A stretch of DNA of 38,520 nt from Pseudomonadota bacterium. Its GTDB lineage: Bacteria; Pseudomonadota; Alphaproteobacteria; Acetobacterales; Acetobacteraceae. Positions within the stretch are counted from its first letter, which is position 1. Every line of letters begins with the position of its first letter. A model generated the notes under the pieces. It saw only the letters and a program-made list of their open reading frames with translations. It was not told the DNA's origin and made no database searches. Shown here piece after piece: positions 12,862 to 30,482 of this stretch. Where the stretch lies: positions 1 through 38,520 of the forward strand of contig JAKBAV010000011.1 of assembly GCA_021826225.1 (NCBI GenBank), in the 5' to 3' direction. Both the position numbers and the translations under genes were made by a program.

Positions 12862-12866
12862 AGCGC

Positions 12867-12932
12867 GCGTGGGGCTGGTGGGACGGCCATGCGCCAGAAA
12901 AAGCCGCGTGGGGTTGGTGGGGCGGCCATGCG
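12867..12932. repeat. Two 27-bp direct repeats at 39-bp period
   Basis: Copies at 12867-12893 and 12906-12932 differ at two positions and lie between the convergent response regulator and urtE. Each can fold with a short stem: CTGG/CCAG in copy 1 and TTGG/CCAA in copy 2, where one C-G pair becomes T-A. In the plus-strand frame the period is 13 codons, giving AWGWWDGHAPEKA then AWGWWGGHASNKS and a TAA stop, but no convincing start belongs to that frame. It could be a bidirectional terminator or a decayed repeat. Confidence 0.6.
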
Positions 12933-12943
12933 TCCAACAAGAG

Positions 12944-13657
12944 CTAAATATTCACCAGATGCGAAATATCGGCCGCCGTATCCACCGCCGTGCTGCCGGA
13001 ACGGATGATCTTCCCGCGCTGCATCACATGGTAATGGTCAGCAAAGGACCAGGCAAAATCCAGATACTGCTCGATGATGACGATGGTCACACCCAGCTCC
13101 TTACGGACCCGGCGCAATGCTTCCTCGATCTGCTGCACCACGCTCGGCTGTATCCCTTCCGTCGGCTCATCCAGGAGCAGCAGCTTGGGTTGCCCCGCCA
13201 GTGCCCGCCCGATGGCGAGCTGCTGCTGCTCGCCGCCCGAGAGCAGCCCGGCCTTGCGGTTGGCGATCTGCGTCAGTTTCGGAAACAGTTCGAAAATATG
13301 CGCGGCGATGCCGGACTCGGAAAGCCCCTTGCGGCCGCTCAGCGCCGCCAGGCCCACGGTTAAGTTCTCCATGACCGAAAGCTGCGGAAACACATGCCGC
13401 CCCTGCGGCACATAGCCGATGCCCGCGCGCGCCCGGCCATGCGCGGGCTTGGCCGAGACATCCTCGCCATCGAACATGATCTTGCCGCCGGTGAGTTTCT
13501 GCACGCCCGCGATCGTGTTCATCAGCGTGCTCTTGCCCACCCCGTTCCGCCCGATCAGCGCCACCGCGCCGCCGCGCTCGACCCCCATGCTCACATCCCA
13601 CAGCACCTTGCTCTGGCCATAGGCCGAGGAAACCGCCTGAACGTCCAGAAGCGTCAT
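12944..13657 (-). CDS. urtE: Urea ABC transporter ATP-binding protein UrtE
   Basis: This is one of the two ATPases of the high-affinity urea importer. It has 237 residues and resembles LivF. Visible motifs are Walker A GRNGVGKST (about 37-45), the Q-loop region YVPQGRHVFPQLSV, signature LSGGEQQQ, and Walker B LLLLDEPTEGIQ, where the EPTEGIQPS sequence is typical of UrtE. Its start overlaps urtD by 4 bp. It is the last gene of urtABCDE and converges on the response regulator. Confidence 0.95.
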   Translation of the reverse strand: MTLLDVQAVSSAYGQSKVLWDVSMGVERGGAVALIGRNGVGKSTLMNTIAGVQKLTGGKIMFDGEDVSAKPAHGRARAGIGYVPQGRHVFPQLSVMENLTVGLAALSGRKGLSESGIAAHIFELFPKLTQIANRKAGLLSGGEQQQLAIGRALAGQPKLLLLDEPTEGIQPSVVQQIEEALRRVRKELGVTIVIIEQYLDFAWSFADHYHVMQRGKIIRSGSTAVDTAADISHLVNI

Positions 13658-14409
13658 TCCTTGCCCCTTCCGAGATACACCGCCGCTACCTGCTCATCCG
13701 CGCGCACTTGTGCGACACTGCCTTCCTTGAGAATCTGGCCCTGATGCAGCACGGTGGTGTAGCCGTTCAGCGCCTCGACGAAGCTCATGTCATGGTCGAT
13801 CACCAGCACCGCATGGCGGCCGAGCAGCGAGAGGATCAGATCCGCCGTGCGCTGCGTGTCCTGCGGTCCCATGCCCGCCGTAGGCTCGTCGAGCAGCAGC
13901 AGGTCGGCATCGGTCGCCACCACCATGCCGATCTCGAGCCATTGCTTCTCGCCATGCGCGAGATCTGCGGCCATGATGCCGCGCCGGTCGGCAAGGCCGA
14001 TCTTCTCGAGAATCTCCTCGGCGCGCACAAGCTCATCGGCCGGGGTTACGGTTGTCAGCGTCCGCCACCAGGCGCGGTTCTTGCGCGCCGCCACCAGCAG
14101 ATTCTGCATCACGGTCAGTGTCGGTAGCACGCCAGGCGTTTGAAATTTGCGGCAGATGCCGCGCCGCACGATCTCCTGCTCCGCGAGTTGGGTGATATTC
14201 TCATCCTTGAACGTGATCCGCCCCGCGGTCGGGCGCACCCGGCCGATGATGGTATCGCACAGGGTTGACTTACCGGCGCCATTGGGGCCGATGAGGATCC
14301 GCAATGTCCCTGGCGTGAGCATCATGGAAACATCGGAGAGCGCCTTGAAGCCATCGAAATCGACGGTGACATTCTCCAGCATCAGCAAGGGCGCGGGGAT
14401 CGCGTTCAT
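13654..14409 (-). CDS. urtD: Urea ABC transporter ATP-binding protein UrtD
   Basis: This is the second ATPase of the urea importer, LivG-like, with 251 residues from the ATG at 14407-14409, which overlaps the urtC stop (ATGA). The frame extends 71 codons upstream, but that part is antisense to nothing conserved and lies inside urtC, so the overlap start is preferred. Motifs are Walker A GPNGAGKST, RKFQTPGVLPTLTVMQNL, the signature-like region LAHGEKQWLEIGM (typical of UrtD, which lacks the usual LSGG) and Walker B LLLLDEPTAGM. Confidence 0.95.
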   Translation of the reverse strand: MNAIPAPLLMLENVTVDFDGFKALSDVSMMLTPGTLRILIGPNGAGKSTLCDTIIGRVRPTAGRITFKDENITQLAEQEIVRRGICRKFQTPGVLPTLTVMQNLLVAARKNRAWWRTLTTVTPADELVRAEEILEKIGLADRRGIMAADLAHGEKQWLEIGMVVATDADLLLLDEPTAGMGPQDTQRTADLILSLLGRHAVLVIDHDMSFVEALNGYTTVLHQGQILKEGSVAQVRADEQVAAVYLGRGKE

Positions 14410-15479
14410 TCGGCGGTTTCCAGTTTGCGGCGCGTGAGCATGCGGCGGACCACGCGCTCCTCCGGTGAGCCGGGCCTGAACAATCCGGCGATACCGGCGG
14501 GCAGAAAGCTTACCGCCAGGATGAACAAGGCGCCAAGCCCGTAGAGCCAGAGCGAGGGCAGCGCCGAGCTGATCTGGTCCTTCGCGAAATTCACCAGCAG
14601 GGTTCCGGCAATCGCCCCCCACAGCACGTTACGCCCGCCGAGCGCCACCCACACCACCATCTCGATGGACGGCACCACGCCCACCAGCGCCGGCGAAACC
14701 ACCCCCGCATGCAGCGTGAACAAGGCCCCGCCAATGCCCGCCAGCACGCCCGCGATGGTGAAGGCGCCAACCTTGTACGGCAGCGGATTATGCCCGAGAA
14801 AACGCACCCGGTTCTCGCCATCGCGCGTCGCCCGCAGCATGATGCCCCAGCGCGTCGCGAGCAGCCAGCGCAAGGCAAAATAGCAGATTGTAACAAGCAC
14901 GAAGGTGATCCAGTAGATCACCCGCGCGGCGAAATTGCTGGTAATGTCGTAGCCGTCGAAGGTGGAATAATCGGTCAACCCGTTGAACCCGCCCGTATAG
15001 GCCTGCTGCGAGATCAGCAGCGTGCTGAAAGCCAGCGCCAGCGCCTGGGTGATGAGCGCGAAATACACGCCGCCTATGCGCCGGCGGAACACCAGCCACG
15101 AAAACGCCGCCGCGACGCTACCGGGTATCAGCACGATGCAGGCGAGCGAGAACCACGGGCTGGCGAAGGGATACCAGAAGGCCGGCAAGGCGGATACGCC
15201 GCTCCACACCATGAAATCCGGCATGTCGCCATTGGCGATGTTGAGCCCTTCGAGTTTCAGGTGCAGCGCCAGCGCGTAAGCGCCCAGGCCGAAGAACACG
15301 CCCTGGCCGAGCGAGAGTATCCCGCCCTCGCCCCAGATGAGCATGATGCCCATGGCGAGGATGGAGAGTGCGAGGAACCGGCCGAGGAGCGACAGCTCGT
15401 AGGCGTTGATGAGCAGCGGCGCGCACGCCCCGAACAGCAGCACCATGGCGGGCAGAATTTGTCTGGAGGAAATTTTCAT
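14406..15479 (-). CDS. urtC: Urea ABC transporter permease UrtC
   Basis: This is an inner-membrane permease subunit of the urea importer, LivM-like, with 357 residues and about nine or ten hydrophobic helices. Characteristic blocks are GEGGILSLGQGVFFGLGAYA near residue 50, the loop ITQALALAFSTLLISQQAYTGGFNGLTD, and RVRFLGHNPLPYKVGAFTIAGVLAGIGGAL (named here by its position near 220-250). It lies 1 bp after urtB and overlaps urtD by 4 bp. Confidence 0.93.
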   Translation of the reverse strand: MKISSRQILPAMVLLFGACAPLLINAYELSLLGRFLALSILAMGIMLIWGEGGILSLGQGVFFGLGAYALALHLKLEGLNIANGDMPDFMVWSGVSALPAFWYPFASPWFSLACIVLIPGSVAAAFSWLVFRRRIGGVYFALITQALALAFSTLLISQQAYTGGFNGLTDYSTFDGYDITSNFAARVIYWITFVLVTICYFALRWLLATRWGIMLRATRDGENRVRFLGHNPLPYKVGAFTIAGVLAGIGGALFTLHAGVVSPALVGVVPSIEMVVWVALGGRNVLWGAIAGTLLVNFAKDQISSALPSLWLYGLGALFILAVSFLPAGIAGLFRPGSPEERVVRRMLTRRKLETAE

Positions 15480-15480
15480 C

Positions 15481-16389
15481 TCAACCCTCCAGGGCGCGGG
15501 TGCGCACGGTTATCACGCCTTGCGGGCGGAATTGGATGAACACGATCACGAATACCAGCAGCAGCACCTGCGCCAGGCTGACATCGACGAATATCTCGAT
15601 CAGCGCTGTAAAAAGCCCGACGATGAGCGAAGCGATGGTGGTGCCGACCAGGCTGCCGAGCCCGCCGAGAATGACGACGAGAAAGGCCGGCACGATGTAG
15701 CTCTGCCCCACGGTCGGCGTTACCGGGCCGAGCAGCGCCAGAATAACCCCGGCCAGCCCCGCCACGCCCGTGCCCAGCGAGAACACCAGCAGGTCGACCA
15801 GCCGCGCATTCACCCCCATGGCCGCCGCCACCGGGCGGTCCTGGTTAACGGCGCGGACATAAAGCCCCAGCCGCGTCCTGTTCAGCAACAGCGCGATCGC
15901 CCCCAGCACGATGGCCGCGACAAGCAGAATGAAAATCCGCGTATCAGGCAAGGTGAGCCCGCCCAGCACGCCGGAAGAGATGGCAACCGTATGGTCAAGC
16001 CAGCCCGGCGCGATAACCTGCACGCCGATGGCGCCGAACAAATTGCGCGCCGCCTGCTGCAGAATGAGTGATACGCCCCAGGTCGCGAGCAGCGTATCCA
16101 GCGGCCGCGCCGAGAGGCGGTGGATGATGGTGAATTCCAGCACCGCCCCCAGCAGGGCCGCGCCGAGAAACGCCACCGGCAGTGCCACCAGCAGGCCAAG
16201 CGGCCCGGGCACCACCGCGAGGGTCATATACGCCAGATACCCGCCCAGCATCAGCATCTCGCCATGCGCCATGTTGATGACGCGCATCAGCCCGAAGCTG
16301 AGCGCCAGGCCAAGCGCCGCCAGCACGAACAGACTCGCCACGGAAACACCGTTGAAGACCTGGCCTAGGAGAAAAGCGGATTCCTGCAT
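15481..16389 (-). CDS. urtB: Urea ABC transporter permease UrtB
   Basis: This is the LivH-like permease partner of UrtC, with 302 residues and about eight membrane helices. It shows the family blocks FGLMRVINMAHGEMLMLGGY (about 33-52) and VILGGLGSLVGTTIASLIVG. Many proteobacterial UrtB proteins carry an extra N-terminal region and exceed 500 residues; this one is the short form. A GGGGG run lies just before the ATG. It is separated from urtA by a strong hairpin, and the stop is 1 bp from the urtC start. Confidence 0.93.
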   Translation of the reverse strand: MQESAFLLGQVFNGVSVASLFVLAALGLALSFGLMRVINMAHGEMLMLGGYLAYMTLAVVPGPLGLLVALPVAFLGAALLGAVLEFTIIHRLSARPLDTLLATWGVSLILQQAARNLFGAIGVQVIAPGWLDHTVAISSGVLGGLTLPDTRIFILLVAAIVLGAIALLLNRTRLGLYVRAVNQDRPVAAAMGVNARLVDLLVFSLGTGVAGLAGVILALLGPVTPTVGQSYIVPAFLVVILGGLGSLVGTTIASLIVGLFTALIEIFVDVSLAQVLLLVFVIVFIQFRPQGVITVRTRALEG

Positions 16390-16409
16390 GAGACCCCCAA
16401 AAAATCCGG

Positions 16410-16437
16410 GGGCGCCCTTTCTCGCAAAAGGGCGCCC
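16410..16437 (-). terminator. Hairpin between urtA and urtB
   Basis: An 11-bp perfect stem (GGGCGCCCTTT with AAAGGGCGCCC) closes a 6-nt loop. Read leftward it follows the urtA stop and is trailed by CCGGATTTTTT. This fits a partial terminator or mRNA-stabilising structure that keeps the binding-protein message more abundant than the permease and ATPase messages. A T-run also follows on the plus strand, so it could act both ways. Confidence 0.75.
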
Positions 16438-16442
16438 GTTTT

Positions 16443-17651
16443 TCAGAATGTGCTATGCGCCCCGCAGCTCTTGCCCGGGAAGGTCAGCGGATCATACGGC
16501 ACCGGCTCGATCGGGCCGGGGGAGGACCAGATGACCTTGAACTGCCCATCCGGCTGCAATTGGCCGATATAGCCGGTCTGCACCATCGACTGGTTCGGCG
16601 CGAACTTCACCTCACCCAGCGGGCTGTCCTGGAAGCCCAGCGCCACCGCGGCATTACGAACCGCTTTCGGATCGAACGTACCGGCCTTCTTCACTGCATC
16701 CGCCCATTCCATAACGTCAACGTAACCATGTACCATCGGGTCATCGACCACCGCGTTCGCGCCATATTTCACCTTATAGGCCGCAACGAACGCGGCATTG
16801 GCCGCACCGGGCAGGCTCTGGAAATAATTCCACGACGTATAGGAACCCGCCAGCAGGCTCGGCCCCATGGCCTGCGCCTCGGGCTCGGCAATCGAGAAGC
16901 TCATCACCGGCAGCTTGTCCGGTGTCATCCCGGCGGCGGCCATCTGTTTGAAGAACGAAACGTTGGAATCACCGTTCAGCGTGTTGATGATGATATCGGG
17001 CTTGGCCTGCTCGATCTCGGCCACGATGGAGGAGAAATCCGTGCCGCCCAGCGGCACGTATTCCTCGCCCGAGAGCGTCAGCCCGGCATGCGCGATGTGC
17101 TTTTTCAGAATCAGGTTGGCGGTGCGCGGATAAACGTAATCCGACCCGAGCAGGAAAATTTTCTTATATCCCTTCTGCTCAGCCCAGGTCAGCGCCGGCA
17201 GCGCCTGCTGGTTGGGCTGCGCGCCGGAATACATGATGTTGGGCGAACACTCATTGCCCTCAAACTGCACGGGGTACCACAGCAGCGAATGCAGGCGCTG
17301 GAACACCGGCAGCATCGCCTTGCGCGAGGAGGAGGTCCAACCGCCGAATACGGTCACCACCTTGTCTTCCTCGATCAGCTTGGTTGCCTTCTGCGCGAAG
17401 GTCGAAGGGTCCGATGCGCCATCCTCCACCACCGGCACGATTTTCTTGCCCAGCACGCCACCCTTGGCGTTGAGCTGGCTGATCGCCAGAAGCTCCGCAT
17501 CCTCCAACGGCACTTCCGAAATCGCCATGGTGCCACTCAGCGATTGCAGCACGCCAACCTTCACCGTGCCATCGGCCAGAGCCGGGCGCACCGCTCCCAG
17601 CATCGTGGTCGCCAGCAGCGCCGCCGCCAGTCCAAAATGTTTCAACGCCAT
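16443..17651 (-). CDS. urtA: Urea ABC transporter substrate-binding protein UrtA
   Basis: This periplasmic urea-binding protein belongs to the Leu/Ile/Val-type family and has 402 residues. It starts with a signal peptide (positive start MALKH, hydrophobic core, ALA cleavage box after about residue 26). UrtA-type blocks include VGVLQSLSGTMAISE, FGGWTSSSRKAMLPVF, LLWYPVQFEGNECSPNIMYS and GAQPNQQALPAL. The aromatic/EGNECSPN region separates UrtA from branched amino-acid binding proteins. GGGGAG lies 8 nt before the ATG. It is the first gene of the urt operon and is divergent from the acyl-CoA dehydrogenase across 217 bp, in which I could not identify a firm sigma-54 site. Confidence 0.96.
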   Translation of the reverse strand: MALKHFGLAAALLATTMLGAVRPALADGTVKVGVLQSLSGTMAISEVPLEDAELLAISQLNAKGGVLGKKIVPVVEDGASDPSTFAQKATKLIEEDKVVTVFGGWTSSSRKAMLPVFQRLHSLLWYPVQFEGNECSPNIMYSGAQPNQQALPALTWAEQKGYKKIFLLGSDYVYPRTANLILKKHIAHAGLTLSGEEYVPLGGTDFSSIVAEIEQAKPDIIINTLNGDSNVSFFKQMAAAGMTPDKLPVMSFSIAEPEAQAMGPSLLAGSYTSWNYFQSLPGAANAAFVAAYKVKYGANAVVDDPMVHGYVDVMEWADAVKKAGTFDPKAVRNAAVALGFQDSPLGEVKFAPNQSMVQTGYIGQLQPDGQFKVIWSSPGPIEPVPYDPLTFPGKSCGAHSTF

Positions 17652-20949: not shown

Positions 20950-21042
20950 GGAAGCGATTGAAGTCTGGTGGCTTCCTTGGTCTTCAAAACCAATGGCCCG
21001 CGAATAGCGGGCGGTGGGTTCGATTCCCATCCGCTTCCGCCA
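20950..21042 (+). tRNA. selC: tRNA-Sec (anticodon UCA)
   Basis: This is the selenocysteine tRNA that reads UGA. It folds with an acceptor GGAAGCG/CGCTTCC, discriminator G and encoded CCA (21040-21042). The D arm has a 6-bp stem and 4-nt loop (20960-20975), the tRNA-Sec hallmark. The anticodon stem TTGGT/ACCAA carries TCA at 20984-20986. A long variable arm has a 6-bp stem (20996-21001 with 21007-21012), and the T loop is TTCGATT. The eighth acceptor pair would be A20957-C21031, a mismatch, while G21013-C21031 could make a sixth T-stem pair. The helix therefore reads as 7+6 rather than the usual bacterial 8+5, still 13 bp in total. Its 3' end is 5 bp from the stop codon of the selenoprotein gene. 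Confidence 0.96.
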
Positions 21043-21047
21043 CGCGC

Positions 21048-22778
21048 CTACCGCTTCCCGATACGCGCCGTCCAATCCGCCGGCAGCACGATCTTCTTGG
21101 CCGTGGGGAAGCCGAGATAGCCGTTCTGCGCGAAGGTATAGGCATTGGTGCGCAACGGATCGCCGGAGACCAGCACCATGAAATCCTGCTTGTCGAACAC
21201 GATCGGCACCATGCGCTCGGGATCGCCGCTTATGGCGAAATCCGTCGGCAATTTGCCGAGATTAACCTGGTGCGCAAGCGAGACGATGGGAAAATCCGCC
21301 CAGTTTTCCGTATAGGTTTCCACGCGCCGCGCCGTCATGCGGGCATGGTCATACAGATACTGCTTCACATCATCCTTGCTCCACCCCGCCTTGGCGATGA
21401 TGTCCGCTAGGATGGGCGTGAGCACCAGCGCCGGCCGCAACGTGCCATAGGTGATGCCGCCGACGGTGAAGATGATCTCCCAGCGCGTGCAGGAGGCCAC
21501 GGCATCCGCCAGATACGGCATGATCTCCTCCGGCGTGCTGCCGGTGACCGAGACGATGACATTGCCGCTGGTCATGCGCGAGATGCTCACGGTATTGTCG
21601 CCGGTTTTGAAGCCCATATCCTCGGCATTGGATGGCCAGCCCATGCCCGCCAGCGCATCCTCGTTTTCCGCCAGCACGACGCGGAAGGTATTGCCAAAGC
21701 ATCCCTTATCCGTTTTGTGGATGAGAAAGCCGCACATGTTGCGCAGGGCCAGCCGCCAGAACCGGCCGACCGCGGTATTCGGCTTAAAGCCGTCGCGCAG
21801 CACGCCCTGCTCGTAATTGAATTTCAGCTCCTTGATGATCGGCCCGTTGAGGATGATCAGCGTTTCCGCCCCCGGCGTATTGCCCGAATGCTCCACGCCG
21901 TAATTCGGATCGACCATGGCTTCCGCAAGGGCGATGAGGATGGGCATGTATTCCGGCCGGCAGCCGGACATCACCCCGTTCACCGCCACGGCCCAGATTG
22001 TCACCGCGCGGCTCGCCGGCAACACCACGCCGAGAATCTCATCCGGATCGCGATCGGTAAAGCTCAGAAAGGCTTCGATTTTCTCGACCGTGGGCGGGAC
22101 AATTGGCAGCCCGTCGCTCCACTCGCGTTCATAAAAATAATCATTCACCTCTTCAAACGTGCCGCTGAACACGATGTCATGTGCCGCCGGCTCGTCCTCG
22201 AACACCATCACATCGGGCTGCTCGGTCAAATTGGCGATGACCTGCGCCGCGGTCACCCGCACGACATTGGCGCGCACCTCCGCCTGGCTTTGCGCCCCAG
22301 GGTGGCCTGGCACCATGGCCAGCGGAATATTGGGCATGCCCAACCCGACAGACGTCGCCACGGCCTGGCCCATGAACCCTTCGCAGGTCAGGGATGAAGA
22401 AGGATAACCGGCTTTTTCACACGCTTCACTGGCCCGCAGCACGGCGGGCGTACAAGAGCCTCAACAAGCCATCCCGGAGATGGCGGCATCGACCCCGAGC
22501 TCTTTGAAACGCTGTGGCAGCGAGGCCAGCAGCTCTTTCTCATTCGTGGTATGGGTATTGCCGAACTCGCGCCAGCTGACGAATTTTACGTCCGGATAGG
22601 TTTTGCGGATTTCGCTCTCAAGCTCGGCAAAAACCTCATCGCCCTGGAACAGATAATCCCATAACTGGGCGATGGTCTTGCCGTTCAGCGTATCGAACCG
22701 CTTGGCCAAAGGCTGGATTTTCTGCCGCCGTTCGCCACTGGGCCAGACGACGTCGTAAATACCCATTTGCTCCGCCAT
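21048..22778 (-). CDS. UGSC-motif selenoprotein with in-frame UGA at 22461-22463
   Basis: This is one gene of 576 residues read through a UGA. Codons 1-105 end in SGMAC, the UGA is residue 106, and the frame continues GSCTPAVLRASEACEKAGYP, giving the motif C-U-G-S-C (U106, C109; a UxxC redox pair). UGSC-containing selenoproteins are a recognised but functionally uncharacterised family. The C-terminal part (from about 195) is long and globular and contains GTFEEVNDYFYEREWSDGLP and several conserved-looking Cys; I do not recognise its fold. A GGAGG site precedes the ATG at 22776-22778. Ordinary gene calling would give a 105-aa fragment and a separate ORF from a GTG at 22440-22442. A SECIS-like hairpin follows the UGA, and all Sec genes are nearby. 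The enzymatic role is unknown; a redox or reductase function is inferred from UxxC. Confidence 0.93.
22432..22449 (-). promoter_or_regulatory. Bacterial SECIS-like hairpin after the UGA
   Basis: In the mRNA, starting 11 nt after the UGA, GCCCGC pairs perfectly with GCGGGC around a 6-nt loop (CGUGCU) that carries a GU at positions 22-23 counted from the U of UGA. In E. coli fdhF the SelB-recognised loop G and U sit at positions 23-24, so size and spacing fit. I do not see the bulged U of the E. coli stem. The element lies within the coding sequence, as bacterial SECIS elements do. Confidence 0.75.
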
Positions 22779-22848
22779 ATAGGGCTCCTCCAGAAAAAAC
22801 TTGGCCAGTTAATACACCCGCGCCGGCGCGGGGCGCAAGATCAACACA

Positions 22849-22879
22849 TAGGGCGGAATGCGCTGCGCTTTCCGCCCTA
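22849..22879 (+). repeat. REP-like palindrome, copy 1
   Basis: The arms TAGGGCGGAA and TTCCGCCCTA flank an 11-base GCGCTGCGC-type centre. An imperfect copy lies in opposite orientation at 23336-23361, so the pair brackets the C39-like gene. The GGCGGAATGCGCTGCGCTTTCCGCC type is commonly seen as a dispersed extragenic palindrome. It lies in the promoter gap between the selenoprotein gene and the peptidase gene. Confidence 0.7.
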
Positions 22880-22927
22880 TACATGCTACTGATATTGCAC
22901 TCAGACTATTGAAATGGAGCATTTACC

Positions 22928-23299
22928 TTGAGGCTTATGAAGCAAAAAACTGCAACAGATTGCGGGGTGGCTTGTGTGGCGATGCTAGCTGGCGTCTCGT
23001 GGGCAAAGGCCAGAAATGCACTGAACTACGACAAGAAAGATACAAAATTTTGGACCAACAAAGACACCATGAGAGATGCTTTGCTGAGCCTCGGAGTGAT
23101 CACCGCTAAAGACCTCGTGGTTTGTAAGAACCCTCAGCGTCTCCAAAGGGATGCACTACTTCGAACCAATGTTCTGGCCAACGGAAATTGGCATTGGGCA
23201 GTGTGGGATGCTAAAAGGAAGACGCTGCTTGACCCGTATTACAAACGACCTCGTCCTCTCTCATGCCTCGTTGTGTTGAGGCGTAGAACTCCGAAATAA
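22928..23299 (+). CDS. Small C39-like (papain-fold) cysteine peptidase
   Basis: This 123-residue protein has the C39 signature TATDCGVACVAMLAGVSW with candidate nucleophile C12, H89 in NGNWHWAVWD and D102 in LLDPYY, a plausible Cys-His-Asp triad. It has no signal peptide, transporter domain or leader partner nearby. The TTG at 22928 is favoured because GGAG at 22916-22919 lies 8 nt before it; the ATG at 22937 is too close to its only candidate site. Base composition and codon use are clearly less GC-rich than the flanking genes, and inverted REP-like repeats bracket it. It is the only plus-strand gene within the selenium operon region, which suggests a later insertion. Its substrate is unknown. 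Confidence 0.8.
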   Translation: MRLMKQKTATDCGVACVAMLAGVSWAKARNALNYDKKDTKFWTNKDTMRDALLSLGVITAKDLVVCKNPQRLQRDALLRTNVLANGNWHWAVWDAKRKTLLDPYYKRPRPLSCLVVLRRRTPK

Positions 23300-23335
23300 G
23301 CCAAGGTTCCGACTTATAATAGCCACCAGAAAGCG

Positions 23336-23361
23336 TAGGGCGGAAAGCACAGCGCATTCCG
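23336..23361 (-). repeat. REP-like palindrome, copy 2 (inverted, imperfect)
   Basis: On the minus strand this matches copy 1 at 22849-22879 over most of its length (GGAATGCGCTGTGCTTTCCGCCCTA, given here only as the shared element), with one internal change and a decayed outer arm. It lies 36 bp after the peptidase gene, in opposite orientation to copy 1. I found no target-site duplication outside the pair. Confidence 0.65.
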
Positions 23362-23444: not shown

Positions 23445-24365
23445 CTACACACTCAAACGGTGAAACGCAGCCTCCGCCGCCGAAACCCCTTCCGCCATGG
23501 CCTGCAGAATATTCCCGCCATAGCCCTGCCGCACCGCGCCCGCGGCGAAAATCCGCTTATCCTTGGTCGCCAGCCCGGCATCTGTTCTCACATGGCCGGA
23601 TTCGGTCAGCAGCGCGCCTGGCAGAAACCCCGAATTGGGCACCACCCCGATGAACGGAAACAGCCCGGTGCATGCAATCTCGCTTGCCGCCCCGGTTTTC
23701 ACATGCCGCAACCGCACGCCGGACACACCCTGCTCGCCGAGAATCTCGGTAATCTCGCTATCCCACACAAATTCCACATTATCGCGCGAGGCGATCTTTT
23801 CCACATAATCGCGCTTGGCCTTCAGCGGCCCGCGGCATATCATGGTCACCTTGCGGCACAGTTTCGCCAGCACCAGTGCCTCTTCCACCGCCGCATCGCC
23901 ACTGCCGGTCACCACCACATCCTGGCCACGGAAAAACCCGCCATCGCAGGTCGCGCAGCGCGACACGCCGCGCCCGGCAAACTCCAGCTCCCCCGGCACG
24001 CCAAGCGGCTTCAGCGTGGCCCCCGAGGCGATGATGATCACTTCCGGCCGATACGCATGGCCTTCCGCATCGGTAATGCCAAGCACCGCGCCGGTCTCAA
24101 TCGTCGCAACGCTCGCCTCGATGATTCGCACCTGCGTCTTGCGCGCCTCCTCGACGAGATGAATGGCGAGGTCCTGGCCTGAGAAATGCCCCGGCACGCC
24201 GAGCCCATGCACCTCATCCACCGTCGCGACGAGGCCGCCGAACATGTAGCTGCCCTCGAACAGCGTCACCAGCCGGCCCAGCCGCGCTATATGGCAGGCC
24301 GCCGAAAGCCCGGCGAGCCCGCCGCCGATCACGGCGACCTCACAACTATTCCTAAGCGGCCTCAT
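23445..24365 (-). CDS. Thioredoxin reductase-like FAD/NAD(P) oxidoreductase
   Basis: This 306-residue flavoprotein has the layout of low-molecular-weight thioredoxin reductase. The FAD motif GGGLAG is at 14-19, the redox disulfide C137-A-T-C140 is followed by DGGFF, and a second nucleotide motif GSGDAAVEEA lies at 154-163. Three points differ from standard TrxB. The NADPH motif HRRxxxR is replaced by CRGPLKAKR. The C-terminal FAD-binding AAGD is AAGA (FAAGAVRQGYGG). The glutamine-rich dimer segment is changed. It is therefore probably a paralog with its own partner; the adjacent UxxC selenoprotein is the obvious candidate. GAGG lies upstream of the ATG. It follows the dioxygenase gene by 47 bp on the same strand. 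Confidence 0.9.
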   Translation of the reverse strand: MRPLRNSCEVAVIGGGLAGLSAACHIARLGRLVTLFEGSYMFGGLVATVDEVHGLGVPGHFSGQDLAIHLVEEARKTQVRIIEASVATIETGAVLGITDAEGHAYRPEVIIIASGATLKPLGVPGELEFAGRGVSRCATCDGGFFRGQDVVVTGSGDAAVEEALVLAKLCRKVTMICRGPLKAKRDYVEKIASRDNVEFVWDSEITEILGEQGVSGVRLRHVKTGAASEIACTGLFPFIGVVPNSGFLPGALLTESGHVRTDAGLATKDKRIFAAGAVRQGYGGNILQAMAEGVSAAEAAFHRLSV

Positions 24366-24412: not shown

Positions 24413-25264
24413 TTAACTGGTCGCTTCAAGCCCCGCAATGGAGGTGCGGTGCATAGTGCGCCCGCTATCCGCCGGGTACGGGATCACGCGGTGCAGCGCG
24501 CCGCCATTATCCCAGATGGCGAGATCGCCTTCCTGCCATTCATGGCTGTAGCAGAATCGCGGCTGCGCGGCCCATTCCTGCAACCGCGCCAGCAGCGCGC
24601 GGCCCTCCGCCTTGCTCCAGCCTACAATATAATCCGCCGAATAGCCGATCATCAGCGATTTGCGGCCATTCTTGCGCGTCCATACCAGCGGCTGCTCATG
24701 CGCGGCGCCGCGCTTGAACGGCTCCAGATCTTCCGGTGCCGCCACCTCGCGCACCGCGGCGACAACGCTATGCATCACGCGCAGGCCCTCAAGTGCTTTT
24801 TTCTCGTCCTCGGGCAGCGCCTCATAGGCGGCATAGGTGTTGCAAAACTGCGTCTGCCCACCCTTGGGTGAGGTTTTCCGGCAGGACAGCACAGAGGCTT
24901 TCGGCACTGGCTGGTTTATGGTCGTGCCATCCATATGCCAGAAGAAGGTCCCGAGCACATATTCCGGCTCCGGATTTTTCTTCTTGTCCAACGTGATCTC
25001 GTACACGTCATTCGCCTTGCTACCGCCCGGCGCGGTATGGGTGAAGTTCACCAGCGCGCCCAGCGCGCCGGTAAAGGCGACCTGCTCCTCATCAGTGAGC
25101 TTCAGCCGGGGGAAAATCAGCGCGTCGTGCAGCTCCAGCAGCTCCATGATGCGCGCCGCCACCGCCGGCTCGCATAAAGCGGCGCGGTCGACATGCAGGA
25201 CGGCGCCGATCTCCGGCTTGATGACTTCGACCCTGATGGCGTCAACATTCATATCCATGGACAT
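24413..25264 (-). CDS. TauD/TfdA-family Fe(II)/2-oxoglutarate dioxygenase
   Basis: This 283-residue enzyme belongs to the taurine/2,4-D dioxygenase family, which couples 2-oxoglutarate decarboxylation to hydroxylation of a substrate. The iron facial triad is visible as H110 and D112 (FFWHMDGT) and H258 (NGGALHRV), and the 2-oxoglutarate Arg is R269 (SGRTMHRTSI). The start is either the ATG at 25262-25264 or the in-frame ATG two codons later, which has better spacing to AAAGGGGA. It lies between the tetR gene and the TrxR-like gene on one strand. In this family the substrates are often sulfonates, carboxylates or aryloxy acids; here the substrate is unknown. Confidence 0.93.
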   Translation of the reverse strand: MSMDMNVDAIRVEVIKPEIGAVLHVDRAALCEPAVAARIMELLELHDALIFPRLKLTDEEQVAFTGALGALVNFTHTAPGGSKANDVYEITLDKKKNPEPEYVLGTFFWHMDGTTINQPVPKASVLSCRKTSPKGGQTQFCNTYAAYEALPEDEKKALEGLRVMHSVVAAVREVAAPEDLEPFKRGAAHEQPLVWTRKNGRKSLMIGYSADYIVGWSKAEGRALLARLQEWAAQPRFCYSHEWQEGDLAIWDNGGALHRVIPYPADSGRTMHRTSIAGLEATS

Positions 25265-25426: not shown

Positions 25427-25454
25427 GATTGGATCGCTTAGATTAGATCGCTCA
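25427..25454. repeat. 14-bp tandem duplication across the tetR stop codon
   Basis: GATTGGATCGCTTA (25427-25440) is followed directly by GATTAGATCGCTCA (25441-25454), with two differences. The first unit contains the TAA stop of the TetR gene (read on the minus strand). The period is not a multiple of three, so a duplication here could have changed the C-terminus of the regulator slightly. Confidence 0.6.
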
Positions 25455-26031
25455 GGTTGGATAACGTCTTATCCACGATGGCGAGGGCCTCCCGGTGCCC
25501 ATCGGTCAGCCCCAGCGCCGCCTCCGACACGATCATGCGCGCCAGCGCCACCGCGATCATCACGATCCCGGCGGCCGAGCCGTCACCCCCGAAGCGCGCC
25601 GGCAGCAGGCGCGTCACCGCCGCGATCTGCATGGCGCGGAATTCCTGGGCGGACCGCACGATCTCGGCGCGGATCGGCTCGCGATGAATGGCAATCGAGG
25701 TCAGCTCGCTCGCCAGCGCCGCCCCGGAAGGGTCGCTGTTGAGTTCCCAGAGCGCGCGCAACGGCTCGGGCCCGGCCAGTGCCTCATCGAACCGTGCCAG
25801 GCGCCGCTCATTCACCCGCCGCACCACCGCCAGGATCAGGTCGTCCATGGTCCGGAAATAATAGTACAGCAATTGCGTCTTGAGTCCCGCCCTGGCCGCA
25901 ACCTGGCGGGCCGTCAGCTCCGGCATGCCCTCATCGCGCAGCACCTCCTCGGCGGCATCGATGAACCGCGTCCTCGTCTGCGAGCTTTCCAGTCCCAGCC
26001 TGCGCGGGGCCTGCGCCGTATCATTATCCAT
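25438..26031 (-). CDS. TetR-family transcriptional regulator of the selenium island
   Basis: This is a 197-residue one-component repressor. The N-terminal HTH covers about residues 20-65 (FIDAAEEVLRDEGMPELTAR, then AARAGLKTQLLYYYF). The C-terminal ligand domain is helical and unassigned. It starts 35 bp after the selB stop and ends 173 bp before the dioxygenase gene, all on the minus strand. It could control the dioxygenase/TrxR-like/UGSC genes, themselves downstream of selA and selB. No strong ribosome binding site precedes the ATG at 26029-26031. I did not find a clear operator. Confidence 0.92.
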   Translation of the reverse strand: MDNDTAQAPRRLGLESSQTRTRFIDAAEEVLRDEGMPELTARQVAARAGLKTQLLYYYFRTMDDLILAVVRRVNERRLARFDEALAGPEPLRALWELNSDPSGAALASELTSIAIHREPIRAEIVRSAQEFRAMQIAAVTRLLPARFGGDGSAAGIVMIAVALARMIVSEAALGLTDGHREALAIVDKTLSNLSDLI

Positions 26032-26066: not shown

Positions 26067-27959
26067 TTACACATTCGGCGCGGGCGATGAAAGCACGGCG
26101 GCGCCGCGCAGCCGCCGGTCGTTGATCCGCCGCGTAAAGCGGATTGTGTCCAGATGATCGAGCAGCGGCATGGTGTATTTGCGCGAGATGCCGAGCGCCG
26201 CGCCGATATCCGTCGCCAGCAGCCCCGACGAGCTTTCCAGCAGGGGCGCCAGGCGCCGCATGGCGTCCTCGACCGCCTCCTGGTGGAACAGGATTTCCCG
26301 GTCCTTGGCGCGATCGACCGCGCGGATCACCACCCCCTCGCGCAGCAGCCGGTCCACCGCCCGCTTCGCCGCCCGGCTGGTGACGATGGTTTTCGGGTCG
26401 GGCGGGGATAATGCCGCGCCGCGCAACAGCGCCTCGATCCGTGCCGCCAGCGCCGCCTCGTCCCGCGCGGCTTCCAGCGCCTCATCCGGCCGGGGCAGCA
26501 CGAGCTGGGCGCCGTGCCGGGCAATCGCCTGACGCGCCAGAAGCACGGCTATGGCCTCATCGAGCACCGCGGCACTGGTCTCCGGCAGGGCAGCCAGCAG
26601 CTTGCCGGGCGCCAGCCCCTCGCGCCGCGCCGCCAGCACCGCGATAATGCGCGCGCAAACCGCCTCGAAGGCTGCCAGCGCCACCACCAGCCCGGCGCGG
26701 CCCGTATGCACGGGCTGCGCCGCGAGCAGCGTGCCGACATGCCCCGGCGCCAGGGCGGATAGCCGCGACAGGGCCTGCAGACTGGTGCCCGCCGCCCCCT
26801 GCCCCGCAAGCTCGGCTGCCACCAGCGCCGCCCCCTCCAGCCGCGCCAGCATCGCCAGCCGCGCCAGCGCGGGTGCCGCGTGCCGGCGCTGGCGCCGCTG
26901 CACCGGCTCCAGAATCATGCCGCCGGCCACGGTGCGGGCCGGCGAGACGAGCCGCAGCACCACATGCGCGCGCGCCGCGCAGGCCACCGGCGCGGCGAAA
27001 TGCAACTGCGCGAAGCCGCTCTCGCCGGGCTCCAGCACATCGCGGTCCAGCAGGCGCAGCCGGATGTCGGACTCCGCCGTGCCGAACAAGGCGCGCAGCA
27101 CCATGCCGTTTTTCAGCGCTGGCGCGCCCGCCACCGCGCGCAGGGTCACGGTCAGCCAGTCCGATGGCACCAGCATGCCAGGTGCTGCCAGCACCATGCC
27201 CCGGCCAAGCCCGGCAATCTCGACATCGCGCAAATTCAACGCCACGCGCTGGCCGGGCGCGGCCGAGGCCACCCCCGCGCCATGGCTCTGCACCCCGCGC
27301 ACCCGCACGGTCGCGCGCGCCGGGAACAGCTCCAGCGCATCGCCCGCCGCCACCGCCGCGCCGCGTAGCGTGCCTGTTACCACCGGGCCGTGCCCGGCCA
27401 CCGCAAAGGCCCGGTCCACCGGCAGCATGGCAAAGCCATGCTGCTCCGCCGGCCCCGCTTCCAGACCCAGCAGCACCTGCCGCAAGGCCGTAATGCCCGT
27501 ATCGCGCGGCACCGAGGTCAGCACCGGCGGCGGCAGTTCGAACCCCGCCTGCATCAGCAGCCGCACCCCCGCCGCCGCCGCCGCCGCGGCCTGTTCTGGG
27601 CTCACCAGATCAGCCTTGCTCACCGCCAGCACGGCGCGGCGCAGCCCGAGCAGCCCGGCAATTTCGACATGCTCGATGGTCTGCGGCTTGATGCCCTCAT
27701 TGGCCGCCAGCACCAGCAGCACAGCGCCAATCCCGGTCGCCCCCGCAATCATGGTGCGGATAAAGCGCTCATGCCCCGGCATGTCGATCAGATCCACTTG
27801 CCGGGCCGCCGCCTGCAGCCGGGCGAAACCCAGGGCAATGGAAATACCGCGCGCCTTCTCCTCGGCCAGCCGGTCGGTCTCCTCGCCGGTCAGCGCCCGC
27901 ACCAGCGCCGTCTTGCCATGGTCGACATGGCCGATCACGCCGACCACCAGAGCGCTCAT
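26067..27959 (-). CDS. selB: Selenocysteine-specific elongation factor SelB
   Basis: SelB brings Sec-tRNA to UGA codons marked by a SECIS hairpin. It has 630 residues from the ATG at 27957-27959, which overlaps the selA stop (ATGA); E. coli SelB has 614. The GTPase domain shows GHVDHGKT at 10-17, the switch RGISIALGFARL, DMPGHERF from 59, and SKAD at 114-117 (SelB proteins use xKAD rather than NKxD). EF-Tu-like beta domains follow to about residue 380. The winged-helix domains end with RKYTMPLLDHLDTIRFTRR, the mRNA-binding terminal domain. Gene order selA-selB matches most selenium-using proteobacteria. Confidence 0.97.
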   Translation of the reverse strand: MSALVVGVIGHVDHGKTALVRALTGEETDRLAEEKARGISIALGFARLQAAARQVDLIDMPGHERFIRTMIAGATGIGAVLLVLAANEGIKPQTIEHVEIAGLLGLRRAVLAVSKADLVSPEQAAAAAAAGVRLLMQAGFELPPPVLTSVPRDTGITALRQVLLGLEAGPAEQHGFAMLPVDRAFAVAGHGPVVTGTLRGAAVAAGDALELFPARATVRVRGVQSHGAGVASAAPGQRVALNLRDVEIAGLGRGMVLAAPGMLVPSDWLTVTLRAVAGAPALKNGMVLRALFGTAESDIRLRLLDRDVLEPGESGFAQLHFAAPVACAARAHVVLRLVSPARTVAGGMILEPVQRRQRRHAAPALARLAMLARLEGAALVAAELAGQGAAGTSLQALSRLSALAPGHVGTLLAAQPVHTGRAGLVVALAAFEAVCARIIAVLAARREGLAPGKLLAALPETSAAVLDEAIAVLLARQAIARHGAQLVLPRPDEALEAARDEAALAARIEALLRGAALSPPDPKTIVTSRAAKRAVDRLLREGVVIRAVDRAKDREILFHQEAVEDAMRRLAPLLESSSGLLATDIGAALGISRKYTMPLLDHLDTIRFTRRINDRRLRGAAVLSSPAPNV

Positions 27960-29332
27960 GGCACGGCCAGTACCGCCGCATGCCATGCCGCCGCCAGAAG
28001 CGGTATTTCGGCATCGGTGACGGCCAGCATGTCAAGCAGCAACCGGCCCTCGCTGAGGCGCCCCACCACCGCCGGGCGATGTGCCCGCAAGGCCGCCGCC
28101 GCCGCTTCGGCGCCCATGGCCGGCAGCAGCGCCACGGCCCAGCTCTCTATCCGCGCCTCGGGCAGCGCGCCGCCACCAGCAAAGCCCGCGCTGTGTTCCA
28201 GCACCCCCTGGCCGAGCCGTTCCAGCAAAGCCTCGGCCCGGCGCCGCAATACGGCACCATTCTGCCGCAGCATCGCATGAACCGGCACGCAGAGCGGAAA
28301 ATCGCGGTGCAGCCTCAACGTGGCTTCGAGCGCCGCCAGGGTCATTTTATCGAGCCGCACGGCACGCAGCAGCGGGTGGGTGCGCAGCCGGTCCATGGCC
28401 GCCGGCTGGCCGAGCAGCAGCCCGGCCTGCGGTCCGCCAAGCAGCTTGTCGCCGCTGCACGTTACCATATCCGCCCCCGCCGCCAGCGCCTGGGCCAAGG
28501 TCGGCTCCGCGCTGCCCGGCGTTTCATGCAGCAGGCCGCTGCCGAGATCGGCCACCACCAGCAGGTTGCGCTCCCGCGCCAGCGCGGCAAGCTCGGCTAT
28601 GCCGGTTTCCGCCGTAAAGCCGATCATCCGGAAATTGCTCTGATGCACCTTCAGCAACACCTTGGTTTCCGGCGTGATGGCGGCGCGGTAATCCGCCAGC
28701 CGCGTCTTGTTCGTCGCCCCCACCTCGACGAGCCGCGCCCCGCCCTGGCGGATGACATCCGGCACACGGAATCCGCCACCGATTTCCACCAGCTCGCCGC
28801 GCGAGACGATCACCTCGCCACCGCCGGCCAGCGCGCTCAAGGCCAGCAGGATGGCCGCCGCGCCATTATTCACCGCCAGTGCCGCCGCCGCCCCGGTGAG
28901 ATCGCGCAATAGCGGCTCCAGCGCCGCGCCGCGCGCGCCGCGCCTGCCGGAGGCAAAGTCGAATTCCAGGTTGCAATAGCCCGCCGCCACCTCCGCCACC
29001 GCCGCCACCGCCTCCGCCGCCAGCGGGGCACGGCCGAGATTGGTGTGCAGCACGATGCCGGTGGCGTTGATCACGCGGCGCAGGCCGGGGCACCGCCGCG
29101 CCGCGAGGCTTGCGCCGGCCGCTTCCAGCACGGCCTCCAGCCCGGGTATTTCAGTCAAGCCGCCACTGCCGATTTGTTCACGTAAGGTGGCAATATGCTC
29201 CCGCAATGCATTGACAACAGAAGATCGGCCATACAGCTCGCACAAAGCCGCCGCCGCCGGCAGCTCGAAAAACCTCTGCACCTGCGGCAGGTTGCGGCGG
29301 GCAGCGGCGCCCTCTTGTCTCTGGGTTGCCAA
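27956..29332 (-). CDS. selA: L-seryl-tRNA(Sec) selenium transferase SelA
   Basis: SelA converts Ser-tRNA(Sec) to Sec-tRNA(Sec) with selenophosphate as donor. It is PLP-dependent and has 458 residues. The PLP lysine is K296 in CSGDKLLGGPQAG (K295 in E. coli). Other blocks are VINATGIVLHTNLGRAPL and ELVEIGGGFRVPDVI. The start appears to be TTG at 29330-29332, with GGGGAT about 9 nt upstream. The first in-frame ATG lies too deep in the conserved core to be the start. It is divergent from selD and overlaps selB by 4 bp. Confidence 0.97.
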   Translation of the reverse strand: MATQRQEGAAARRNLPQVQRFFELPAAAALCELYGRSSVVNALREHIATLREQIGSGGLTEIPGLEAVLEAAGASLAARRCPGLRRVINATGIVLHTNLGRAPLAAEAVAAVAEVAAGYCNLEFDFASGRRGARGAALEPLLRDLTGAAAALAVNNGAAAILLALSALAGGGEVIVSRGELVEIGGGFRVPDVIRQGGARLVEVGATNKTRLADYRAAITPETKVLLKVHQSNFRMIGFTAETGIAELAALARERNLLVVADLGSGLLHETPGSAEPTLAQALAAGADMVTCSGDKLLGGPQAGLLLGQPAAMDRLRTHPLLRAVRLDKMTLAALEATLRLHRDFPLCVPVHAMLRQNGAVLRRRAEALLERLGQGVLEHSAGFAGGGALPEARIESWAVALLPAMGAEAAAAALRAHRPAVVGRLSEGRLLLDMLAVTDAEIPLLAAAWHAAVLAVP

Positions 29333-29423
29333 TGTTTCTTATCCCCAGCTTTGAATAAAGCCCCTGCAAACGCATGCTAACAGAGTGTACAGCGGCGAGA
29401 AATATTTGCAAAACGGAGGCAGC
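29333..29423. promoter_or_regulatory. Divergent promoter region selA-selB / selD
   Basis: These 91 bp separate the selA start (minus) from the selD start (plus) and must drive both arms of the selenium machinery. It is more AT-rich than its surroundings and contains TGCTAACAGAGTGTAC-type sequence, but I cannot fix -35/-10 boxes with confidence. A CGGAGG ribosome binding site for selD lies at 29413-29418. Confidence 0.5.
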
Positions 29424-30482
29424 ATGAGCGAGCAGACACCAAAACTCACGGCGCTGGCGCATGGCGGCGGCTGCGGCTGCAAGCTCTCGCCGGGCGTGCT
29501 GCGTGAACTGCTCGCGGATATGCCGGGATTCGGCCCCTTCCCCGATCTGCTGGTCGGCATTGAGACCGGGGATGACGCCGCCGTGTACCGCATCAACGGC
29601 AGCCAGGCCGTGGTGGCGACCACCGATTTCTTCATGCCCATCGTCGATGATCCGTTCGATTTCGGGCGCATCGCCGCGGCCAACGCGCTCTCGGATGTCT
29701 ATGCCATGGGCGGACGGCCGATTCTGGCACTCGCCATACTCGGCATGCCGCTCGGCAAGCTCAGCGCGGACGCCGTGCGCGCCATATTGCAAGGCGGTGC
29801 CACGATATGCGCGCAAGCGGGCATCCCCGTGGCGGGCGGCCATTCCATCGATGCGCCGGAGCCGATCTACGGCCTGGCGGTGATCGGGCTGGTCAACCCG
29901 GACCGGATCCTGCGCAATACCGGCGCGCGGGCCGGCGATGTTCTGATTTTGACCAAGGGGCTCGGCATCGGCGTGATCAGTGCGGCGCTGAAGGCGGGCC
30001 AGCTCCCGCCGGCGCAGGAGCGGGCGGTCTATGCCACGCTCGTGGCCTCTGCCACGCAGCTGAACGCGGTGGGGCATGATCTGGCCGGCATGGCGCAGGT
30101 CCACGCGGTCACGGATGTCACCGGCTTCGGCCTGCTCGGCCATGGGCTGGAAATCTGCCGGGGCTCGGGGCTTGCCGCACATATCAACTACGCCGCAGTG
30201 CCGCTGCTGGCGGGGGTGGGAGCGCTCGCGCCAACCTACCGCACCGGCGCCGCGGTGCGAAACTGGGCCAGCTACGGCCATGAGGTCAGCCTCGAATCCG
30301 GCATCGCGGATTGGCAGCGCGATGTACTGGCCGACCCGCAGACCAGCGGCGGCCTGCTGCTGGCGGTGGCACCGGAAGGCGCGGAAGCGGTGCTGGCCTG
30401 TCTGCGCGAAGCCGGATTCGGCCTTGCCGCGGCCATCGGCGGGATGACGGCGGGGCCGCCCAAAATCAGCGTTACGGCCTGA
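29424..30482 (+). CDS. selD: Selenophosphate synthetase SelD (Cys form)
   Basis: SelD makes selenophosphate from selenide and ATP, the selenium donor for SelA. It has 352 residues from the ATG at 29424, preceded by CGGAGG; an in-frame upstream start at 29385 lacks a site. The active-site pair is C17 and K20 in [10 protein letters not shown], the same numbering as E. coli, so it is a Cys enzyme and does not need Sec for its own synthesis. Further blocks are [42 protein letters not shown] (about residues 71-103) and [13 protein letters not shown]. It abuts the convergent esterase gene with no gap. Confidence 0.97.

Follow-up and report, generated by a model that had tools for sequence, protein, structure and literature searches.

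The 38,520-nucleotide stretch analyzed here (called the window below; positions 1 to 38,520 of contig JAKBAV010000011.1, GenBank assembly GCA_021826225.1, from a Pseudomonadota bacterium of the family Acetobacteraceae) carries on its minus strand a gene at 21048-22778 that almost certainly encodes one selenoprotein of the UGSC family. Comparison with related loci indicates that its in-frame UGA is read as selenocysteine (Sec) at residue 106 of a 576-aa product, in which a UGSC domain is fused to a partner domain. Our overall interpretation, to which we give a probability of roughly 0.6, is a two-part selenoreductase fed by a thioredoxin reductase (TrxR)-like protein and carried on a self-sufficient Sec cassette, with the exact bond left aside.

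Reading Frame and Selenocysteine Codon

The gene starts with ATG at 22778 and reaches a TGA (22463-22461) after 105 codons; beyond it, another 470 codons in the same frame lead to a TAG at 21048-21050. That TGA and the final TAG are the only stops in this frame, and the other two sense frames contain 19 and 15 stops. A Shine-Dalgarno-like GGAGGAG, read from the sequence, is located at 22785-22791 on the minus strand, 6 nt before the ATG. Residues around the Sec106 junction are A-C-U-G-S-C-T. A preliminary description of this DNA had joined a 105-residue open reading frame (ORF) to the long downstream ORF through the UGA at 22461-22463 without a frame change, and the ORF reading bears this out. 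It had also recognized C-U-G-S-C as the UGSC signature, and Pfam agrees: PF24696 (UGSC) matches residues 9-185 (22224-22754, minus strand) at 96.6 bits (cut-off 25). The same profile matches all eight members of our profile A1, which includes the window protein; the equivalog cut-off of NCBIfam NF041046 (UGSC_fam) is missed (39.6 vs 125 bits).

A contig scan with peptide patterns that leave out the Sec position found seven relatives with 46-86% identity, all with TGA at the aligned codon (7/7). Their taxa include Proteobacteria, Novosphingobium, Gammaproteobacteria, two Candidatus Binatia, and one Desulfurellaceae metagenome-assembled genome, and two of the seven belong to the window's own genus. 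The preliminary description had proposed a search of homologs for Cys or UGA at residue 106; among 26 related loci, the codon is UGA in 14, Cys (TGC/TGT) in 10, and Met in two. The UGA loci are in G000 (the window genome), G429, L002 (a contig of G430), L005 (a contig of G434; 100% identity over 17,707 bases), Novosphingobium sp. MW5 L003, L004, L006-L008, G139 (two loci), G311, Acidovorax L018, and Paracoccus L028; neither L002 nor L005 was counted twice. The Cys loci are G143, G277, L019-L025, and Roseovarius sp. THAF8 L027, and the Met loci are the fused relatives L026 and L029. UGSC or CGSC is present in 11/11 aligned members (Sec in four and Cys in seven, in the same column), and Cys109 is invariant in these 11. 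One of the 10 Cys loci, L022 (Neorhizobium galegae pNgVX, 8932-10600), has CSTC instead of CGSC.

Selection and gene content also argue for translation through the UGA. The ratio of non-synonymous to synonymous substitution (dN/dS) is about 0.1-0.4 on either side of the UGA in six comparisons (five of the seven close relatives and G429, with the upstream synonymous distance to L004 saturated), indicating purifying selection on both parts. Against L005, non-synonymous/synonymous distances are 0.12/1.0 upstream and 0.10/0.78 downstream. SelA is encoded in 11/11 UGA-type genomes tested (four of the window's genus and seven others); it is missing from the two Cys-type genomes tested, of which G143 has a match at 1e-5 only, and from G435. 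Public annotations of relatives on Acidovorax and Paracoccus plasmids end at the UGA, which would fit an ordinary stop codon or a sequencing error, the gene then being two fragments or a pseudogene. Given a UGA in every scan relative, the low dN/dS downstream, the Cys homologs, and the adjoining Sec machinery, this is the most improbable of the alternatives considered here. A single selenoprotein read through at residue 106 is the preferred reading, and the family assignment of the preliminary description is sound (PF24696, Sec/Cys exchange in one column, SelA in the UGA-type genomes). The family is not new, and its fusion with an unknown C-terminal domain was reported in 2008 (PMC2398784, available text).

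Several related loci were noted in passing. On the Acidovorax sp. T1 plasmid (L018, 8640-8930) the annotated product is a 96-aa hypothetical protein ending at the UGA; on Paracoccus ferrooxidans pFER4 (L028, 8387-8956) the UGSC selenoprotein is split into two small hypothetical proteins, and the fused UGSC-partner gene of L022 is annotated as two overlapping hypothetical proteins. The Met-type genes on plasmids of Sporomusa termitida (L026, 8323-10047) and Vibrio europaeus (L029, 8686-10371) have GDMGTS and ADMGTS, without the catalytic Cys/Sec, and are located near aconitase X and DUF126 genes; they possibly represent a non-redox branch. The genome G277 lacks SelA, and its Cys-type UGSC gene (L032/L016, G277:C6, ~12789-13246), in which an in-frame TGA follows the conserved Phe and the frame is broken in the N-terminal part, is probably a pseudogene or an assembly error.

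SECIS-like Hairpin

Downstream of the UGA, a hairpin resembling a selenocysteine insertion sequence (SECIS) is located at 22432-22449 on the minus strand, with a 6 bp stem (GCCCGC/GCGGGC), a six-nt loop (CGUGCU), and its center 20.5 nt after the UGA. A hairpin of SECIS size had been pointed out in the preliminary description, and it is present; by itself it is modest (rank p = 0.024 vs shuffles), and it becomes convincing because all 14 scored UGA loci have a hairpin at the same distance (6-8 bp helix, center 20.5-21 nt after the UGA). Single-sequence hairpin p values range from 0.01 to 0.18 across UGA loci. Folded as they stand, the 45 nt that follow the UGA had no stability beyond that of shuffles (z about 0). 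Two unrelated stem sequences occur: GCCCGC/GCGGGC in the fused clade and a TCGTGGA/TCCACGA kind in the remaining UGA loci. The latter contains a compensated pair, which is G-C in L018, L028, and L035 and C-G in L030 and L031. The best hairpins in the 10 Cys loci are mostly weaker or otherwise placed (0 to -9.0 kcal/mol, vs -6.3 to -15.3 kcal/mol in UGA loci).

Partner Domain

The C-terminal part of the protein (residues ~195-576; 21051-22196, minus strand) is, judging from genome comparison, a regular partner of UGSC that occurs fused or as a neighboring gene, and not a stray domain. When 398 genomes of the phylum were searched, PF24696 matched five and the partner profile (A4, 16 sequences) matched five, and these were the same five genomes. 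A partner gene or domain is next to every UGSC locus in those five; it is fused in G000 and a neighboring gene in the other four, and in G139 an additional, third partner gene adjoins the second UGSC-partner pair. The chance of such a 5/5 overlap is about 1 in 8e10 by hand arithmetic that assumes the genomes to be independent. Plasmids carry fused pairs in Variovorax boronicumulans, Acidovorax, and Neorhizobium, and split pairs in four haloarchaea, Roseovarius, Paracoccus, and Variovorax SRS16. The UGSC and partner domains thus very probably form a two-part unit.

Nine partner residues are invariant in the 16-sequence alignment (D222, G223, P229, T230, C273, P275, G312, R339, and E371 in window numbering). 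The earlier remark that the C-terminal part has no recognized fold still holds: there was no Pfam match and no convincing PDB-sequence match, and Foldseek found nothing at E <= 0.001 with the partner-domain model (mean pLDDT 56.5).

Fold of the UGSC Domain and Probable Relationship to PrdB/GrdB

In the predicted structure (model m390f82ca5bd6), the UGSC domain consists of alternating strands and helices, with Sec106 between strand 98-104 and helix 110-122 and Cys109 at +3. Confidence (pLDDT) in this part is 42-89 by blocks and below 50 at residues 105-110, the Sec loop; mean pLDDT of the full-length model, built on an 8-row alignment, is 53.9. Both the full-length and the partner-domain models, and the Foldseek runs made with them, rest on seven close relatives. 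Top Foldseek matches of the full-length model include flavodoxin-like domains, none at E <= 0.001. With moderate confidence, the modeled domain looks flavodoxin-like, contrary to the thioredoxin (Trx)-like fold proposed in 2008. In a sequence search against solved structures, the full protein matched nothing at E <= 1, and profile A1 matched 8gql alone (E 0.54). No relatives were found in the viral contigs searched. A candidate family member in G054 (E 8e-4) was rejected, as its match was not repeated by PF24696 or by the partner profile A4.

Profile comparison suggests a probable, distant kinship between the UGSC domain and the subunit that carries Sec in D-proline and glycine reductases (PrdB/GrdB). 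The comparison set included nine sequences: five PrdB of Bacillota and four GrdB-like proteins (from Haematobacter and Roseomonas plasmids and two genomes of the window's class). Of 24 plasmid records listed in the search for UGSC relatives, 12 were inspected, and 7 of the 24 of a second list were used. Alignment of 20 UGSC domains with the nine PrdB/GrdB sequences in hhalign gave a probability of 91.8 (E 7.5e-7), and an overlapping 11-row UGSC alignment (A3) gave 88.4 (E 2.8e-6); with PrdB alone, the values were 86.5 and 85.2. These alignments place the UGSC Sec in one column with the Sec in the UGTC motif of PrdB. Hidden Markov model searches between UGSC and PrdB/GrdB match both ways (best E 1e-6 and 4e-6), with very small sets. 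UxxCxxC, given as the GrdB motif in the available text of PMC13188914, is found in two UGSC members (G139 and G311).

Control comparisons gave low probabilities. Against UGSC, the partner domain scored 0.1-0.2, TrxR 0.4-0.5, PrdA 0.2, and Asp/Glu racemases 3.7 and 0.9 (13 and 1.2 when two wrong-frame rows, L060 and L062, were included). GrdB/PrdB scored 1.4 against TrxR and 6.4 against racemases (1.9 without the two wrong-frame rows).

Selenocysteine Cassette

The window contains a compact set of genes for Sec decoding. The tRNA-Sec gene (anticodon UCA; ARAGORN, and 78.5 bits to Rfam RF01852) is at 20950-21042 on the plus strand. The preliminary description had placed it 5 bp past the stop of the selenoprotein gene; the distance is correct, and it had left unsaid that the tRNA is on the opposite strand, convergent with that gene. 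At 3-8 kb upstream of the selenoprotein gene are selB (26067-27986, minus strand; TIGR00475, 266.9 bits vs 242), selA (27956-29332, minus strand; TIGR00474, 489 bits vs 268), and a divergent selD, of the Cys form as judged from its translation (29385-30482, plus strand; NF002098, 481 bits vs 299).

Searches of 38 genomes from the window's genus show SelA to be present exactly where the full gene is. The full-length gene occurs in four genomes (G000, G429, G430, and G434), each with one TGA, and SelA (E < 1e-190) is found in exactly the same four of 38. Three other genomes of the genus have matches to the SelA query only at E 7e-5 to 9e-4 over ~100-150 residues, which were taken as other pyridoxal phosphate enzymes. 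Gene order in G429 and G434 is selA-selB-TetR-TauD-TrxR-UGSC-SDR (short-chain dehydrogenase/reductase), with tRNA-Sec; in G430, a short contig has TauD-TrxR-UGSC-SDR with tRNA-Sec, and the SelA match is on another contig.

A fifth genome of the genus, G435 (95% complete), has a decayed copy. At this locus (L085, G435:C128, 1016-1660), the UGSC gene stops at about residue 116, passing into a tRNA-Sec-like remnant, the TrxR gene is reduced to a 61-residue remnant, and selA, selB, and selD are gone; by tblastn, the SDR, TauD, TetR, and alpha/beta-hydrolase genes are nearly full length. SelA was absent from the whole genome, and selB, selD, and tRNA-Sec (ARAGORN) were not found within the 8 kb locus stretch. 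Decay has therefore affected the selenoprotein and the TrxR-like gene along with the Sec machinery, be it in one step or in several.

Linkage of the UGSC gene with Sec machinery extends beyond this genus. In G311, from another family of the class, UGSC, partner, tRNA-Sec, selB, and selA occur in a different order within 6 kb (L096, G311:C31, 5024-10695), and on the Paracoccus plasmid, selA and selB flank the UGSC-partner pair. PF00384 genes with an in-frame stop were found neither in G000 (three PF00384 matches) nor in nine of the 10 other UGA-type genomes, several of which are incomplete. The scan of G000 for selenoproteins beyond UGSC covered PF00384 and PF07355 types, which is not enough to call UGSC its sole selenoprotein. 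A molybdopterin oxidoreductase with one in-frame TGA is encoded in G444 (G444:C65:20943-22391), ~4 kb from selA, and is likely a second selenoprotein of that genome.

Neighboring Genes

Upstream of the selenoprotein gene on the minus strand is a gene for a TrxR-like flavoprotein (23445-24365; PF07992) with CATC at residues 137-140, the proposed electron donor. It scores 224 bits with TIGR01292 (equivalog cut-off 343), and we therefore regard it as a divergent relative of thioredoxin reductase; the copies in L024 and L027 pass this cut-off. Flanks of 5-9 kb were searched with tblastn at cut-offs of 1e-5 and 1e-6, counting the window genus once, and a TrxR-like gene was found near 10 of 23 loci (window genus, L003, L004, the second G139 locus, G143, L020, L021, L022, L024, and L027). 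Next are genes encoding a TauD/TfdA-family dioxygenase (24413-25264, minus strand; PF02668), which is kept in G435, and a TetR-family regulator (25438-26031, minus strand; PF00440).

Outside this core, neighbors are mostly metabolic and vary by locus. In addition to the TauD dioxygenase of the window, they include cytochrome P450, SDRs, and aminotransferases (L003), amidase and CoA transferases (L006), and tripartite tricarboxylate transporter proteins, phosphoenolpyruvate (PEP)-mutase family proteins, and malonyl-CoA enzymes (plasmid loci). Metabolic neighbors that differ in this way suggest a reductase that acts on small catabolic substrates, which probably differ between members.

A small plus-strand ORF beginning MKQKTATDCGVACVAMLAG (22928-23299), presumably resembling a C39/BtrH-type peptidase, lies between the selenoprotein and TrxR genes. 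It is flanked by 26-nt inverted repeats (22854-22879 and 23336-23361, 96% complementary), and the region 22854-23361 is perhaps a small mobile element. Elsewhere in the window are an Rfam 5_ureB_sRNA match (6697-6983, plus strand; 90.3 bits) and, at 12944-17651, a Peripla_BP_5 protein gene with other ABC transporter genes, which resemble those of the urea type (urtABCDE). On the Acidovorax plasmid, close to the UGSC gene, a SAM riboswitch (L018, 13548-13652) precedes the gene for an ABC transporter substrate-binding protein.

Proposed Function

In the proposed mechanism, electrons from NAD(P)H would pass to the TrxR-like flavoprotein (CATC) and from there, directly or via thioredoxin, to the pair formed by Sec106 and Cys109. 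Once reduced, the selenolate would attack a small substrate positioned at the partner domain, where Cys273, Arg339, and Glu371 would be the best candidates for binding the substrate or resolving a selenium intermediate. A reductase fed by TrxR is probable. Since the UGSC domain is remotely homologous to the Sec subunit of PrdB/GrdB, the likeliest chemistry would be reductive cleavage of a carbon-heteroatom bond in a catabolic substrate; bond cleavage like that of PrdB/GrdB is suggested tentatively, from sequence relationship. More speculative still is the idea that Sec-dependent reductases include a third branch, next to glycine and D-proline reductase, in which UGSC would be the catalytic subunit and would have its own partner subunit, often a dedicated TrxR, and a class of catabolic substrates not yet linked to selenium. 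Such a protein could be the main tenant that keeps a selA-selB-selD-tRNA-Sec cassette, the two being gained and lost together. Hosts of UGSC selenoproteins are, we assume, largely aerobic.

Several results weigh against this interpretation or parts of it. The ranges of hairpin energy in UGA loci and in Cys loci overlap, and the Cys locus L020 has a hairpin at 20 nt with the same p value as the window (0.024). Met replaces Sec/Cys in two fused relatives (on the Sporomusa and Vibrio plasmids), which means that Sec/Cys chemistry is not available to every member of the wider group. The hhalign probability falls to 62 and 42 when UGSC is compared with the four GrdB-like proteins alone, and the aligned core covers only ~50-85 columns. 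Pfam hmmscan gave no GRDB (PF07355) match in eight members at E up to 10, a search in which HMMER filters drop most weak hits, and because PF07355 does not detect UGSC proteins, the family is not classed as a member of GrdB/PrdB. The hhalign probability of the partner with PrdA is 0.1, and the predicted model of the partner domain, at a mean pLDDT of 56.5, is not trustworthy. No TrxR-like gene was found near 13 of the 23 loci (L006, L007, L008, the first G139 locus, G277, G311, L018, L019, L023, L025, L026, L028, and L029).

Two other functions were considered. UGSC could be a general thiol or selenol oxidoreductase with a Trx-like fold that repairs or protects other proteins, the C-terminal domain serving as a docking part. 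The UxxC motif, the adjoining TrxR-like gene, and the Trx-like fold suggested in the available text of the 2008 Global Ocean Sampling (GOS) paper (PMC2398784) are consistent with this. However, the modeled strands and helices alternate, with flavodoxin-like domains among the top Foldseek matches (none at E <= 0.001), the profiles resemble those of GrdB/PrdB, the neighbors are metabolic and variable, and the partner is large and has nine invariant residues, including R339 and E371. We consider this function unlikely. A selenium-dependent organometal or metalloid enzyme, like the SAO organometallic systems, is more doubtful by a wide step. Residues 105-106 of the window's fused clade are C-U, a soft-metal ligand pair, and PMC13188914, in its available part, gives a CU motif for SaoL; elsewhere in the family, however, Sec/Cys is preceded by D, A, H, N, or M. 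Moreover, no mercury- or arsenic-resistance gene was present among annotated plasmid neighbors, which include one zinc ABC transporter binding protein, or in Pfam scans of L003 and L006. A TrxR-fed reductase acting on small substrates is still preferred.

Comparison with Known Systems

Both the UGSC family and a fusion designated UGSC/Unknown_1 were already published in 2008, and UGSC was among the most abundant selenoproteins of the GOS aquatic metagenomes, with 255 sequences in 37 samples (PMC2398784, available text). UGSC and proline reductase are given as separate families, UGSC without a function, in the parts of PMC2398784, PMC13188914, and PMC9312934 that were available. The present analysis adds a regular partner, a probable kinship with PrdB/GrdB, a nearby TrxR-like gene, and a genus-level tie to SelA together with a decayed copy. 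The locus offers several handles on UGSC function. Besides a partner subunit and a candidate for the electron donor, these are a distant connection to reductases whose chemistry is known and a decay that occurred in nature.

As a member of the UGSC family (PF24696 and NF041046; the UGSC-containing protein of PMC2398784 and PMC13188914, available text), the window protein has the same motif, Sec/Cys exchange, and domain length; it differs in falling below the NF041046 equivalog cut-off and in having the partner domain in the same chain. Its architecture is that of the UGSC/Unknown_1 fusion of the GOS dataset (PMC2398784, Fig. S1A), a likeness drawn from the text description only; Unknown_1 may be the same as the window's C-terminal domain, and no gene context is given in the available part of that paper. 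UGSC shares with PrdB/GrdB (PF07355) a Sec placed between a strand and a helix and a Cys at +3 (UGTC vs UGSC), but hmmscan with Pfam does not relate the two and the UGSC partner is not PrdA-like. In Alpha- and Betaproteobacteria and Pseudomonadales, a selA-selB-selC operon adjoins fdhA, the sole selenoprotein gene (PMC1794560, available text). The window likewise has compact Sec-decoding genes beside the selenoprotein that they serve, but the UGSC selenoprotein occupies the place of fdhA, indicating that a selenoprotein other than fdhA can adjoin a compact Sec-decoding cassette.

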